Shown here: positions 26,304 to 30,592 of the stretch, piece by piece | Numbering within the stretch: position 1 is the stretch's first letter | Layout of the letters: each line of letters begins with the position of its first letter | Assembly: GCF_006575665.1 (NCBI RefSeq) | Contig: NZ_CP041253.1 | Location: forward strand, 4,563,001 to 4,627,000 | Source of the DNA: Echinicola soli | Lineage (GTDB): Bacteria > Bacteroidota > Bacteroidia > Cytophagales > Cyclobacteriaceae | Reading direction: 5' to 3' | DNA: 64,000 nt | Translations under genes and position numbers: made by a program | Notes under the pieces: generated by a model | The model's database searches: none | The model's input: only the letters and a program-made list of their open reading frames with translations | Told to the model about the DNA's origin: nothing

Positions 26304-27665
26304 ATGAAATCGATCAATCCATATACAGGAGAACTTTTGGAAGAATTTGCTGAATTCACTGAAAAACAAGTGGAATCAGCGATACAATCAGGACAAAATG
26401 CCTTCTTTTCCTGGCGAGAAATGCCAATTTCACAAAGGGCAGAACTAATGAAAAAGGCAGGACAAGTCCTTAGGGACAATGTCAATAAATACGGGGAAAT
26501 CATTTCCCTTGAAATGGGAAAAGTCATTACAGAGTCCAGATCCGAAGTGGAAAAATGTGCTTGGGTATGTGAATATTACGCCGAAAAAGCAGCGGAAATG
26601 CTTGCTGATGCCCCCATATCCCTACCAGATGGGAAAAAAGCTAAAGTGGTGTATAATCCACTCGGCATTGTGTTGGCCGTGATGCCATGGAACTTCCCTT
26701 TTTGGCAAGTATTTCGCTTTGCCGCTCCGAACCTGACCGCAGGCAACGTAGGACTGCTAAAACATGCCAGCAATGTCCCCCAATGTGCCCTGGCCATAGA
26801 GGAAGTATTCACCAAAGCCGGATTCCCGGAAGGTGTATTCCAAACCCTTTTGGTCGGCTCCGACAAGGTTGCCAATATTATCGCCCATCCTGATGTGAAG
26901 GCCGCCACCCTTACCGGAAGCGAAAAAGCAGGCCAAATCATCGCAGCCCAAGCAGGCGAACAGATCAAAAAAACAGTATTGGAACTGGGTGGAAGTGACC
27001 CCTTTATCGTACTGAAAGACGCTGATGTGAAAGAAGCCGCTAAGGTAGCTGCCAAAGGACGCATGATCAACTTTGGCCAAAGCTGCATTGCGGCCAAGCG
27101 CTTCATCATAGAAGAAGCCATTTATGACGAATTTGTTATCAATTTTAAGTCAGCCATAGAGTCCTATTCACCTGGAGACCCGCTGGATGAAAATGCTGGA
27201 TATGCCTGTATGGCCCGTCCCGACCTGGCGATGGAACTTTACGAGCAAGTGGAAGCTTCCATCCAAAAAGGTGCGGAGGTGATTTTGGAAGGAATAAAAC
27301 CAGAAGAAGGCAAGGCGTTTTTTAAGCCCTATATCCTAGGTAATCTCTCGTCGGAAATGCCAGCATACAGGGAGGAGCTTTTTGGCCCCGTAGCTTCAGT
27401 ATTCAAGGTAAAAGATGAAACAGAAGCCATTGCCATTGCAAATGATTCTGATTTTGGGCTGGGCGCTTCCCTGTGGACCAAAGATCCAGAAAAAGCCGAC
27501 CAACTGAGTCGGAAGATCGAAAGTGGTGCGGTATTCATAAATTCCATGGTAGCCTCCAATCCCTACCTGCCCTTTGGTGGCATCAAGAAATCAGGTTATG
27601 GCAGGGAGCTGGCCGAAAATGGCATCAAAGAGTTTATGAATGTGAAGACCGTTTATATAGGGTAA
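26304..27665 (+). CDS. NAD(P)-dependent succinate-semialdehyde dehydrogenase
   Basis: Aldehyde dehydrogenase of 453 aa that oxidises succinate semialdehyde to succinate (GABA or related degradation). The ATG at 26304 gives MKSINPYTGE, the usual start of the YneI/Sad branch; the TTG at 26280 is not needed. Catalytic residues are the Glu in VLELGGSDPF and the Cys in FGQSCIAAKRF; the NAD-binding MPWNFPFWQVFR block is intact. The FGQSCIAAKR variant favours Sad (YneI)-like enzymes. No GABA aminotransferase is adjacent. Confidence 0.88.
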   Translation: MKSINPYTGELLEEFAEFTEKQVESAIQSGQNAFFSWREMPISQRAELMKKAGQVLRDNVNKYGEIISLEMGKVITESRSEVEKCAWVCEYYAEKAAEMLADAPISLPDGKKAKVVYNPLGIVLAVMPWNFPFWQVFRFAAPNLTAGNVGLLKHASNVPQCALAIEEVFTKAGFPEGVFQTLLVGSDKVANIIAHPDVKAATLTGSEKAGQIIAAQAGEQIKKTVLELGGSDPFIVLKDADVKEAAKVAAKGRMINFGQSCIAAKRFIIEEAIYDEFVINFKSAIESYSPGDPLDENAGYACMARPDLAMELYEQVEASIQKGAEVILEGIKPEEGKAFFKPYILGNLSSEMPAYREELFGPVASVFKVKDETEAIAIANDSDFGLGASLWTKDPEKADQLSRKIESGAVFINSMVASNPYLPFGGIKKSGYGRELAENGIKEFMNVKTVYIG

Positions 27666-27771
27666 GTGAATAGGATTGTTTTGGCTCAAGCGAAACATAG
27701 ACATGCTCAAATATGCCCTTAGGGCTCTAAATGAAATTTATCATATTTGTAATATGAATAAGAAAAAAAAT

Positions 27772-28240
27772 GGCTCTATATGGATTATAGTGGGTAAATA
27801 TACAAGGCGTTTTTTTCCAACTGTTTCACACTCCTTAGTTAAGGGGAGAATCTCCTTTCTCAGGTATTTGACGTTGAAAAATCAAAGAAGCGGGCAAATA
27901 AAAAAGGCTATCTCTTAAGTTAAGCAAGTGAATTAAGTCCCAAATAATTTTTCTTAATTGGCTTGACCCATAATACAATATTCAAATAACAATTTTGACG
28001 ATACGGTTATTCATTACTACTGAAAGCGGGGCGGACGACATAGCAGCGAGGCGGCGGCTGGTTTGTGGGTTGAAGCATTGCTATGTCTTGATTTTTTCGT
28101 TCTTTTTTATCAAGAAAAAAGGACAAATAGTTTCCAATCTTATTACATGAAAATGCTTCTTTTCACGTTTCCAAAAATATAAATGCTCAATCTGTACTAA
28201 CATATATAAATTCAGCATATACAGTAAATCATATAGAACC
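27772..28240. mobile_element. Non-autonomous element A with GGYTCTRTATG ends (469 bp)
   Basis: Left end GGCTCTATATGGATTATAGT and right end (read inward on the minus strand) GGTTCTATATGATTTACTGT form terminal inverted repeats. Perfect 8-bp direct repeats AAAAAAAT flank it (27764-27771 and 28241-28248). The interior has no transposase; it contains a GACATAGC/GCTATGTC inverted repeat (about 28037-28087). The 8-bp duplication and GG-starting ends suggest mobilisation by an ISL3-type transposase (inference). The same ends occur at 28704-29100. Confidence 0.75.
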
Positions 28241-28391
28241 AAAAAAATGATATTTCCGTTCAAATCAAAGAATTCAAACGTAGGTTAAAGTCACAGATGC
28301 CTCATGTTCGAAAGGAAATTTCGATTTACTAAAAAAACGTTGCATTAGGTATACAAAAAAAACACCCTAAACCTTCTCCTAAATTTAAGTA

Positions 28392-29349
28392 ATGGCATTG
28401 CCAATACTTTTAGTAATAGGGGGATGTAATGAAGCTGAAAAATCCACTTATTCTCGAACGTTGCCCCCTGAATCCATCGATATTTTTGATTATGACAAAC
28501 ATTTCTTGCGAATATACGAATCGCTGATGTCCTCGGAATTTCAGGACATGATGGCTCATAATATGGCTTTTCGGGAGTTAGAGCAAAAAACGGATATTGC
28601 TATCAAAAATGGTCAATCTTTTGCCTATGAAACAAATTTCCACTCCACTCTATTGGCCGAACATTTTTAAAAGTAGAGGGTATGAAATAAGCCTAATTTA
28701 TTTGGTTCTGTATGATTTACTATGGATAAACTGAGCGCTAGTGGGCTATGGAGATCGAAGAATCGCGTGGATGGATGAATTTGGGTGCCCATGCTCCTGA
28801 TGCAGTCGATAATGATATTTGTTTTCCTTGTCCATGGTCAGTACCTACGGCACTGTTAGGATGCTGTATCCAATTTCTGTTACCAAGCTAATGCTCCTAA
28901 CGGAGCATCCCTGCCGACACTTCTGTCGGCTAAAATAGAGAGGGGGGAGTCCTGGCCAATGCCACTAGGCATTTAAGCTTGGTAAGATCAGGTTGCCTCT
29001 AATGGTCTTTGTGCCGTAGGAACAAAACTATTCCCCTGATCTATCCGCACAAGTGGGACAGTCCCGTGGATAATTTACCCACAGTATTCCATATAGAACC
29101 ATTTATTTTTGCTTAGATTCAATAGAAAAGGCGAAAAGAAGGGTAGCGATTCGTGTAGAAAATAACGGTCACCATGTTCCAGATCATGAAATTGAAAAAA
29201 GATATATAGAAGTGTTTAATAATTTAGATGAACATTATACTTTTTTTGATAACCTCCATGTTTTTAACAGTTCCTTCTATAACGCTCCTCCTGAAAATTG
29301 TTTTTCAATGAAAAAAGGAAGGCTTGTGATGATGGAAACCCTTCCCTGA
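28392..29349 (+). pseudogene. Zeta-toxin-like P-loop kinase, disrupted by element B
   Basis: Remnant of a COG4185/zeta-toxin-type ATPase. The first part (28392 to about 28700) encodes PILLVIGGCNEAEKSTYS, a P-loop in which both expected glycines of GxNGAGKS read Glu, then the family-typical DYDKHFLRIYESLM stretch. A single-base frameshift lies between about 28643 and 28665. The frame IFKSRGYEISLIYF is then cut by element B (28704-29100). After removal of the element and one duplication copy, translation runs on as CLDSIEKAKRRVAIRVENN and GHHVPDHEIEKRYIE, ending at 29349. With the P-loop lost, frame broken and insertion present, it is surely inactive. The living family phosphorylates small molecules; its role as a toxin here is not shown. 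Confidence 0.8.
28704..29100. mobile_element. Non-autonomous element B with GGYTCTRTATG ends (397 bp), inside the kinase pseudogene
   Basis: Left end GGTTCTGTATGATTTACTAT and right end (minus strand) GGTTCTATATGGAATACTGT are inverted repeats. Perfect 8-bp target duplication ATTTATTT lies at 28696-28703 and 29101-29108. No ORF. The interior carries small hairpins, ATGCTCC/GGAGCAT (about 28891-28909) and GCCGACA/TGTCGGC (about 28913-28931). The interior differs from element A, so only the ends are shared. Confidence 0.82.
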
Positions 29350-29557
29350 TTTTTAAAGAAAGTTTCACCCCTTATGTACCAACGCGTAACTTCAGAAGCT
29401 AAATCCCTTTAAGAAAAACCAAAAGCAACAGTAAAGATTAATAAAGAAATGATTTATTAAGTTTAAGCACTTGGTTTTCTAAAGCACGTTCATTAAAACA
29501 CTAAAACCTTTAAACATTCAAACCTTCTAACATTCCTAGGTTAATTCCGCAATCGAC

Positions 29558-29588
29558 TTGGTAATTGAAGGATTACTTTCTATTTTTA
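29558..29588 (+). promoter_or_regulatory. Candidate promoter of the pyruvate dehydrogenase E1 beta gene
   Basis: TTG at 29558-29560 is followed after 20 nt by TATTTTTA (29581-29588), close to the Bacteroidota -33 TTTG / -7 TAnnTTTG pattern with 19-21 nt spacing. The start codon is 23 nt downstream. Confidence 0.4.
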
Positions 29589-29611
29589 CGAGCGAAAATT
29601 TTGGCTAAAAA

Positions 29612-30592
29612 ATGAGAGAAATACAATTTAGAGAAGCATTAAGAGAGGCCATGTCCGAAGAAATGAGACGCGATAAAAACGTGTTTCTCATGGGTGAGGA
29701 AGTGGCCGAATACAATGGAGCCTATAAAGTAACCCAGGGCATGTTGGATGAATTCGGGCCGGACAGGGTGATCGACACCCCGATCTCAGAAGGCGGTTTT
29801 GCCGGACTGGGCGTAGGTGCCGGAATGAACGGTCTGAGACCAATCATCGAATTCATGACGTTTAACTTTTCCTTGGTGGCCATTGACCAGATCATCAATT
29901 CAGCAGCAAAGATGTACGCCATGTCTGGCGGTGCTTACAATGTGCCTATCGTATTCAGGGGGCCTACCGGTAATGCCGGACAATTGGGTGCTACCCACTC
30001 TTCCAACTTCGAAAATTGGTTTGCCAATACACCAGGACTGAAAGTAGTGGTTCCCAGTAACCCTTACGATGCAAAAGGTCTGCTAAAAGCAGCCATTCGT
30101 GACGATGATCCTGTGATTTTTATGGAATCTGAGCTGATGTACTCCGATAAAGGTGAAGTACCTGAAGGAGAATATCTCTTGCCCATCGGTGTAGCGGAGA
30201 TCAAGCGAAAAGGAGCCGATGTGACAATTGTCTCTTTTGGCAAAATCATGAAAGTGGCCCTGGAAGCAGCTGAAGAGCTTGCCAAAGACGGTATCGAAGC
30301 TGAGGTAATTGACCTTAGAACCGTTCGCCCTATCGATTATGCCACGGTGTATGAATCCGTAAAGAAAACCAATCGATGTGTAGTGGTAGAAGAAGCCAAC
30401 CCTGTTTCCTCACTGGCTACCGACCTGGCTTTCAACATCCAGAAAAACATGTTTGACCATTTGGATGCGCCAGTACTTAGGGTAAACTCCATGGACATCC
30501 CATTGAGCTATTCACCTACTTATATCGAGGCTACCCTTCCAAATGTGAAAAGGACCATAGAAGCGGTGAAGCAAGTGACATATGTGAAGTAA
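29612..30592 (+). CDS. pdhB: Pyruvate dehydrogenase E1 component, beta subunit
   Basis: 326-aa beta chain of the heterotetrameric E1 of the 2-oxoacid dehydrogenase complex, which decarboxylates pyruvate with thiamine diphosphate. The N-terminus REIQFREALREAMSEEM, the GEEVAEYNGAYKVTQG loop (with the Glu that activates the cofactor), the FMTFNFSLVAIDQI block and the C-terminal EEANPVSS segment match PdhB rather than branched-chain or acetoin homologues. The alpha subunit and E2 are not adjacent, as is common in Cytophagales. A strong terminator follows at 30611-30648, so it is a single-gene transcript. Confidence 0.93.
   Translation: MREIQFREALREAMSEEMRRDKNVFLMGEEVAEYNGAYKVTQGMLDEFGPDRVIDTPISEGGFAGLGVGAGMNGLRPIIEFMTFNFSLVAIDQIINSAAKMYAMSGGAYNVPIVFRGPTGNAGQLGATHSSNFENWFANTPGLKVVVPSNPYDAKGLLKAAIRDDDPVIFMESELMYSDKGEVPEGEYLLPIGVAEIKRKGADVTIVSFGKIMKVALEAAEELAKDGIEAEVIDLRTVRPIDYATVYESVKKTNRCVVVEEANPVSSLATDLAFNIQKNMFDHLDAPVLRVNSMDIPLSYSPTYIEATLPNVKRTIEAVKQVTYVK

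Follow-up and report, generated by a model that had tools for sequence, protein, structure and literature searches.

Target duplications of 8 bp are the length for the ISL3 family of insertion sequences (ISs), and MITEs in general need not be internal deletions of a parent element. A described case close to the one presented here is a 187-nt MITE of Microcystis with GGCTCTTCG ends and 8-nt duplications, which was ascribed to ISL3 on evidence like ours according to the portion of that report drawn on here, where an 8-bp duplication is also stated for an ISL3 IS (PMC11448079). We analysed two elements, A and B, in a 64-kb window (the whole stretch of DNA under analysis), for which an earlier note had given coordinates, ends and 8-bp duplications; all of these were exact when checked again. 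The features are listed below by position in the window, "the IS" being the resident ISL3-family insertion sequence described further on, and G005 and G010 being other genomes of the genus.

27772..28240, + strand: element A, 469 bp, read as an ISL3-type MITE, with relatives elsewhere in the genome
27764..27771, no strand: left copy of the A target duplication, AAAAAAAT; present once at the unoccupied site of G005 and of G010
28241..28248, no strand: right copy of the A target duplication, AAAAAAAT
27772..27797, + strand: left terminal repeat of A, GGCTCTATATGGATTATAGTGGGTAA; 22/26 against the left end of the IS
28223..28240, - strand: right terminal repeat of A, GGTTCTATATGATTTACT; 18/18 against the left end of the B consensus
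28023..28127, + strand: core of A (GACATAGCA...TGCTATGTCTTGATTTTTTCG...); present in at least 7 congeners
28704..29100, + strand: element B, 397 bp, read as an ISL3-type MITE, at 40 or more genomic places
28696..28703, no strand: left copy of the B target duplication, ATTTATTT; single at G005:C1:4699552-4699559
29101..29108, no strand: right copy of the B target duplication, ATTTATTT
28704..28731, + strand: left terminal repeat of B; family consensus 22/26 against the right end of the IS
29073..29100, - strand: right terminal repeat of B; family consensus 26/26 against the left end of the IS
28815..29061, + strand: core of B, palindromic repeat R1, whose hairpins include AGTACCTACGGCACT and ATGCTCCTAACGGAGCAT; R1 occurs without transposon ends as well

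The ends are GGCTCTATATG and GGTTCTATATG in A, and GGTTCTGTATG and GGTTCTATATG in B, the window copy of B carrying G for A at the seventh base of its left terminal repeat. The pattern GG[CT]TCT[AG]TATG has exactly four matches in the window, all of which are edges of A and B, and GGYTCTATATGRNNTA with at most one mismatch gave 94 matches in the genome, compared to 5 for a reversed-pattern control. The 14 exact duplications of this genome match over 8 bases and never over 9. Neither A nor B fully contains an ORF of at least 80 aa; one of 80 aa, at 27676-27918, spans the left edge of A. Alignment of A with the B consensus was limited to the ends, the interiors being unrelated. The different interiors and missing transposase described in the earlier note were thus borne out, but the interiors are not arbitrary, because both enclose sequence that occurs elsewhere in the genus without ISL3-type ends.

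Empty sites were searched by comparing positions 27100-30300 of the window with 11 genomes of the genus, this genome included. G005 presented three adjoining blocks, 82-90% identical to the window, which cover the left flank of A, the spacer that separates it from B, and the right flank of B. The overlap between the second and third blocks is precisely ATTTATTT, 8 bases long (G005:C1:4699552-4699559), and the A site reads GCAAAAAAATGATATT, with one target copy. The A site is also empty in G010, again with one target copy, and there are small length differences in this stretch relative to both genomes. Since both sites are empty in G005, both elements were inserted after the split from that species, and a precise loss of A and B from G005 instead of insertion here is less likely. 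A and B are thus real, fairly recent insertions. Empty sites had been suggested for sister strains; the comparison obtained, with G005 empty at both sites and a single target at each, is between species. B sits between two pieces (28392-28703 and 29101 onward) of an apparently decayed gene, which is uninterrupted by B in G005. The left piece, of 92 aa, had no match in Pfam and NCBIfam at E up to 1; its motifs suggest a decayed gene for a P-loop (zeta-like) protein.

PF01610 has two matches in this genome (G000), a complete gene and a fragment. The complete gene encodes a 405-aa transposase and belongs to a 1287-bp ISL3-family IS (G000:C1:5250363-5251649), the only intact copy in the genome, with ends GGTTCTATATGGAATACTGTGGGTAA and GGCTCTAAATGATTTAGTATGGCTAAAC and an exact 8-bp duplication, TAAAAAAT. 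The full IS with the same ends and a transposase that the earlier note had proposed looking for is therefore present. Its transposase scored 246.8 bits for PF01610, 41.2 bits for HTH_Tnp_ISL3 and 305.3 bits for the NCBIfam ISL3 equivalog (cut-off 180), with the zinc-ribbon PF14690 at 22.3, under the cut-off of 25.5. Residues D158, D215 and E363, which we take to be the DDE triad of the ISL3 transposase, are invariant in all 120 aligned transposase sequences (query included). The left end of the IS matches the right end of the B consensus at 26/26 positions and its right end matches the left end of the B consensus at 22/26, the match of the IS ends to A being weaker (left 22/26, right 17/26). 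Outside the terminal 26-28 bp, A, B and a 367-bp MITE of G005 have nothing in common with the IS save short matches at chance level, so these MITEs are not simple deletion derivatives. Two further pieces of the IS were found. L046 is a truncated copy, 98.7% identical over 613 bp, an identity that suggests recent movement of the IS, and L113 is a remnant of about 154 bp.

Within the genus, PF01610 was matched in this genome, G004 and G003 only. The G003 match is a distant relative (25% identical), and the best G004 copy (L161; G004:C2:997986-999197) shares 76% identity with the G000 transposase and has a single TAA within the match. Among seven related ISs inspected (one in G004, six in other genomes), L077 alone had both clear ends and an exact duplication; it is a 1288-bp element of a Calditrichota MAG with a transposase 55% identical, 20/20 inverted ends GGCTCTATGTGAAATAGTGT and the duplication TTTTATTT. 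L078 has GGCTCTATGTGAAATACAGT at each end, L080 has 20/20 ends of another sequence (GGGGCTATGTCG...), and L161 has imperfect ends (GGCTCTATAGG.../GGCTCTAAGTGG...; its ends read GGCTCTATAGGATTTGTAGT and GGCTCTAAGTGGAATATAGT), all three without a matching duplication. No convincing ends were found in L081, in L082 or in L079, the available sequence of which stops shortly after the match. When plasmids were searched with the G000 transposase, only relatives of less than 60% identity were returned. A search across the family for the end pattern gave, outside the genus, 7 matches in 144 genomes, compared to 22 for the control, which is not above background.

The AT-rich target preference proposed in the earlier note was seen in 44 exact duplications (14 from this genome and 30 from G005). 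All 44 have at least 6 A/T among their 8 bases, compared to 27.5% of the 8-mers of the window, and are 93% A/T overall, in a set that was chosen for exactness and somewhat favours AT-rich sites. The 30-bp flanks in this genome are 64-65% A/T, compared to 57% for the fetched DNA. T adjoins the GGA-type end in 33 of the 44, and every one of the 14 exact-duplication pairs here combines one GATTTA/GATTAA-type end with one GGA/GGG-type end.

Further inverted-repeat copies, another point to be checked, turned out to be numerous. When the best 40 of 80 candidates for B were scored, giving 46 pieces, the family was found at no fewer than 40 places in this genome, 24 of them near full length and one (341471, L115) consisting of the core alone. 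The 24 near-full-length copies are 81.8-98.5% identical to the consensus, with a median pairwise identity of 91.6%. Because of this spread B is not a fresh burst, which tempers the "active mobilising transposase" of the earlier note, although the insertion since the G005 split and the intact transposase gene agree with it. Flanking 8-mers of the 24 copies matched exactly in 8 cases, with one mismatch in 3, two in 4 and three or more in 9; only 0.04 exact duplications were expected (1 exact in 552 off-diagonal flank pairs). Copies with three or more flank mismatches include ones 97-98% identical to the consensus. Four copies (G000:C1 140745, 593874, 2430869 and 3981245), 95.5-98.2% identical to the consensus, lack an 8-bp duplication at the expected place, and the copy at 3981245 has a duplication within one mismatch in a shifted register. 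Recombination between copies is one possibility for the duplication-less copies. Whole B was not found in a search of 58 other genomes that included 10 congeners, with the best 11 or fewer candidates scored per genome; partial matches were present in four congeners (G003, G005, G008 and G010).

R1 occupies positions 112-358 of B and matches repeats outside MITEs in this genome and in congeners. In this genome it occurs without the ends at L115 (B positions 112-358), L287 (131-276) and L289 (113-261). The flanks of these three loci resemble the B ends no more closely than shuffled sequence does, their similarity being reached by 10-100 of 100 shuffles (the lowest value, 10, is that of the left flank of L289), and two-mismatch end motifs lie at some distance from L115 and L289. 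The congeners G010, G005 and G003 also carry R1: 11 of 14 congener loci had no end motif (up to 2 mismatches, 400 bp), 2 had a two-mismatch motif only, and L126 in G005 lies beside a MITE. B is, as judged from these copies, a chimera in which MITE ends surround an independent palindromic repeat. Two R1 hairpins are nearly invariant over 16 copies from 3 species, the alignment consisting of the window copy and 15 of 19 found, with 4 left out as the same DNA from a neighbouring locus. Compensatory change was seen in 0 of 12 predicted pairs of the two hairpins over the 16 copies, so covariation is no test of the R1 structure, which is suggested by sequence and fold energy, not by covariation. An Rfam family was rejected for 27600-29620, where the single match had an E of 0.94, far below the gathering score.

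REP/BIME palindromes go together with a RAYT Y1 transposase, and Y1_Tnp is present in 10 of the 11 genomes of the genus. In G010, a gene for a Y1 transposase and an R1-like repeat are separated by about 1 kb (G010:C1:2847632-2847976 and 2849005-2849080), and a RAYT-type link between the two is possible. In G000, three of four Y1 (IS200-like) matches have an ISL3-like end at a distance of about 1.5 kb or less. At L118 (G000:C1:4335928-4336632), a degenerate B copy aligns as far as B position 268, next to an IS200-like Y1 gene of 148 aa; another Y1 gene is near the ISL3 IS remnant of about 154 bp, and a third is near a one-mismatch motif without B or IS match. We draw no conclusion from this proximity.

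For A, the best 40 of 95 candidates were scored, which gave at least one relative, with 93% over A positions 162-469, and at least 12 further places with partial matches only, mostly to the first 120 bp or the right end. The left 26 bp of A are identical to the left end of the G005 367-bp MITE consensus (26/26), as is the right terminal repeat to its right end (18/18). Since A shares with this MITE 31 bp at the left end, 34 bp in the interior and 18 bp at the right end, it belongs to an older, diversified family. The congeners with the A core are, among the matches listed, G001, G003 and G005-G009, and an ISL3-type end motif with 0-1 mismatch was absent within 400 bp of all four congener A-core loci inspected. 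In G007, G006 and G009 (L230, L231 and L232) the A core lies inside a common repeat of about 270 bp, 85-89% identical, and is thus part of another repeat there rather than standing alone. The inverted ends of this repeat are only weak, and it is possibly another MITE-like family.

Exact end motifs number 70 in G005 and 57 in this genome, compared to 0-3 in the other nine congeners. Of 20 pairs in G005 stretches around likely pairs, 15 had exact duplications; 28 further stretches gave 22 elements, 15 of them exact, that pass a filter which itself uses the duplication, and 6 stretches yielded none. These 48 fetched stretches contain 28 full-length copies of the 367-bp MITE family (for example L233-L252 and L277-L279), 22 of them at least 99% identical to the consensus, with 6 hits at 100%, one over 364 of 367 bases. 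Searches of the single-contig G005 assembly with PF01610 and with the G000 transposase were both negative. In 24 longer G005 stretches (4-6.5 kb, with unpaired exact ends), no element above 963 bp, up to 5 kb, combined the ends with a duplication that was exact or had a single mismatch; the other 24 stretches, of about 1-1.6 kb, are too short to reveal a long element. Three elements of 673-674 bp (L266, L269 and L271) with the same end type and exact duplications form a separate length class. The simplest account is that the G005 transposase came from a plasmid outside the assembly or from an IS that has recently been lost.

With the ends, duplications, empty sites, copy families and an intact IS with matching ends and duplication all observed, A and B are very probably non-autonomous MITEs mobilised in trans by a DDE transposase of the ISL3 family. 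The ISL3 link, which the earlier note had offered as an inference, is now the best reading of both elements and comes with a candidate transposase. We infer that the IS transposase acted on A and B, and the chemistry of transposition would run as follows. An ISL3 transposase would recognise the terminal 26 bp or so on either side, a GGAATA/GGATTA-type end being paired with a GATTTA-type end, and the element would enter an AT-rich 8-bp target, often with T beside the GGA-type end, which would be duplicated. The single intact IS at G000:C1:5250363-5251649 is the candidate resident source. R1 may have entered B when ISL3 ends came to flank a free-standing copy, with amplification afterwards, and A would be an old member of a second family, a relative of which spread separately in G005.

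Two other accounts of the movement deserve weighing against this one. A different transposase might recognise the ends, the resident ISL3 IS merely sharing ancestral ends, and the 22 copies of the G005 family at 99% or more in a genome without PF01610 or G000-transposase match would fit such an enzyme. We consider it very unlikely, however, because the 24 longer G005 stretches held no alternative element above 963 bp with such ends and duplication, the G000 IS has these ends together with the same duplication length, and an ISL3 gene of G005 may be on a plasmid missing from the assembly or have been lost. That A and B are static palindromic repeats, their duplications being chance matches in AT-rich DNA, is hardly conceivable: B does fold well as DNA (z of -4.4 for the whole element, compared to only -0.7 for A), its core is a repeat and the targets are AT-rich, but the exact empty sites in G005 already contradict this reading, and chance would have given 0.04 exact duplications in place of the 8 in 24 observed.

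It is compatible with the ISL3-type MITE reading, although improbable, that B serves chiefly as a vehicle for a functional R1, acting as a terminator, in mRNA stability or in protein binding. The two almost invariant hairpins (16 copies, 3 species) agree with this, as does the high conservation of B positions 121-180 (0.96-0.97), though the first 20 bp reach 0.96 too; on the other hand, conservation along B is nearly even (0.90-0.97, slightly uneven), and none of the 12 predicted pairs was compensatory. More widely, though still doubtfully, ISL3 ends might be interchangeable "brackets" that repeatedly enclose and amplify unrelated folded host repeats species by species, with bursts in genomes without their own ISL3 transposase driven by a transient or external source.

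A candidate transposase can now be named for two otherwise orphan elements. G005, with near-identical copies and no detectable transposase, lends itself to a direct test of where the mobilisation came from, and one transposon family enclosing independent palindromic repeats is a possible route by which such repeats spread. The literature searched contained no report of such MITEs in this lineage. Elements of this kind are already known; less ordinary are the chimeric interior of B and the G005 burst without a detectable transposase.

The resident IS fits the ISL3 family (PF01610/HTH_Tnp_ISL3, 1287 bp, 8-bp duplication), whereas A and B have no transposase. As far as the portion of the Microcystis report drawn on here describes it, the MITE of that genus resembles A and B in being non-autonomous, in having ends that match those of an ISL3 IS, duplications of 8 nt and a stem-loop, and in its copy number of about 31-33, but it is 187 nt long with 9-nt GGCTCTTCG ends, compared to 26-bp asymmetric ends and 397-469 bp here, where there are several families with other repeats in their interiors (PMC11448079). 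MITECca01 of Cardinium, according to the section of its report used here, is likewise a lineage-specific MITE that has spread in a genome where its parental IS is still intact, although the parent is of the IS982 family and the MITE is about 240 bp (PMC9769881). R1 is similar to REP/BIME sequences, as characterised in the part of the source consulted, in being built of short palindromes that hardly vary and are arranged as paired modules; however, it is longer than the 20-40 bp REPs (PMC3733652), and here one copy is enclosed in a DDE-type MITE.
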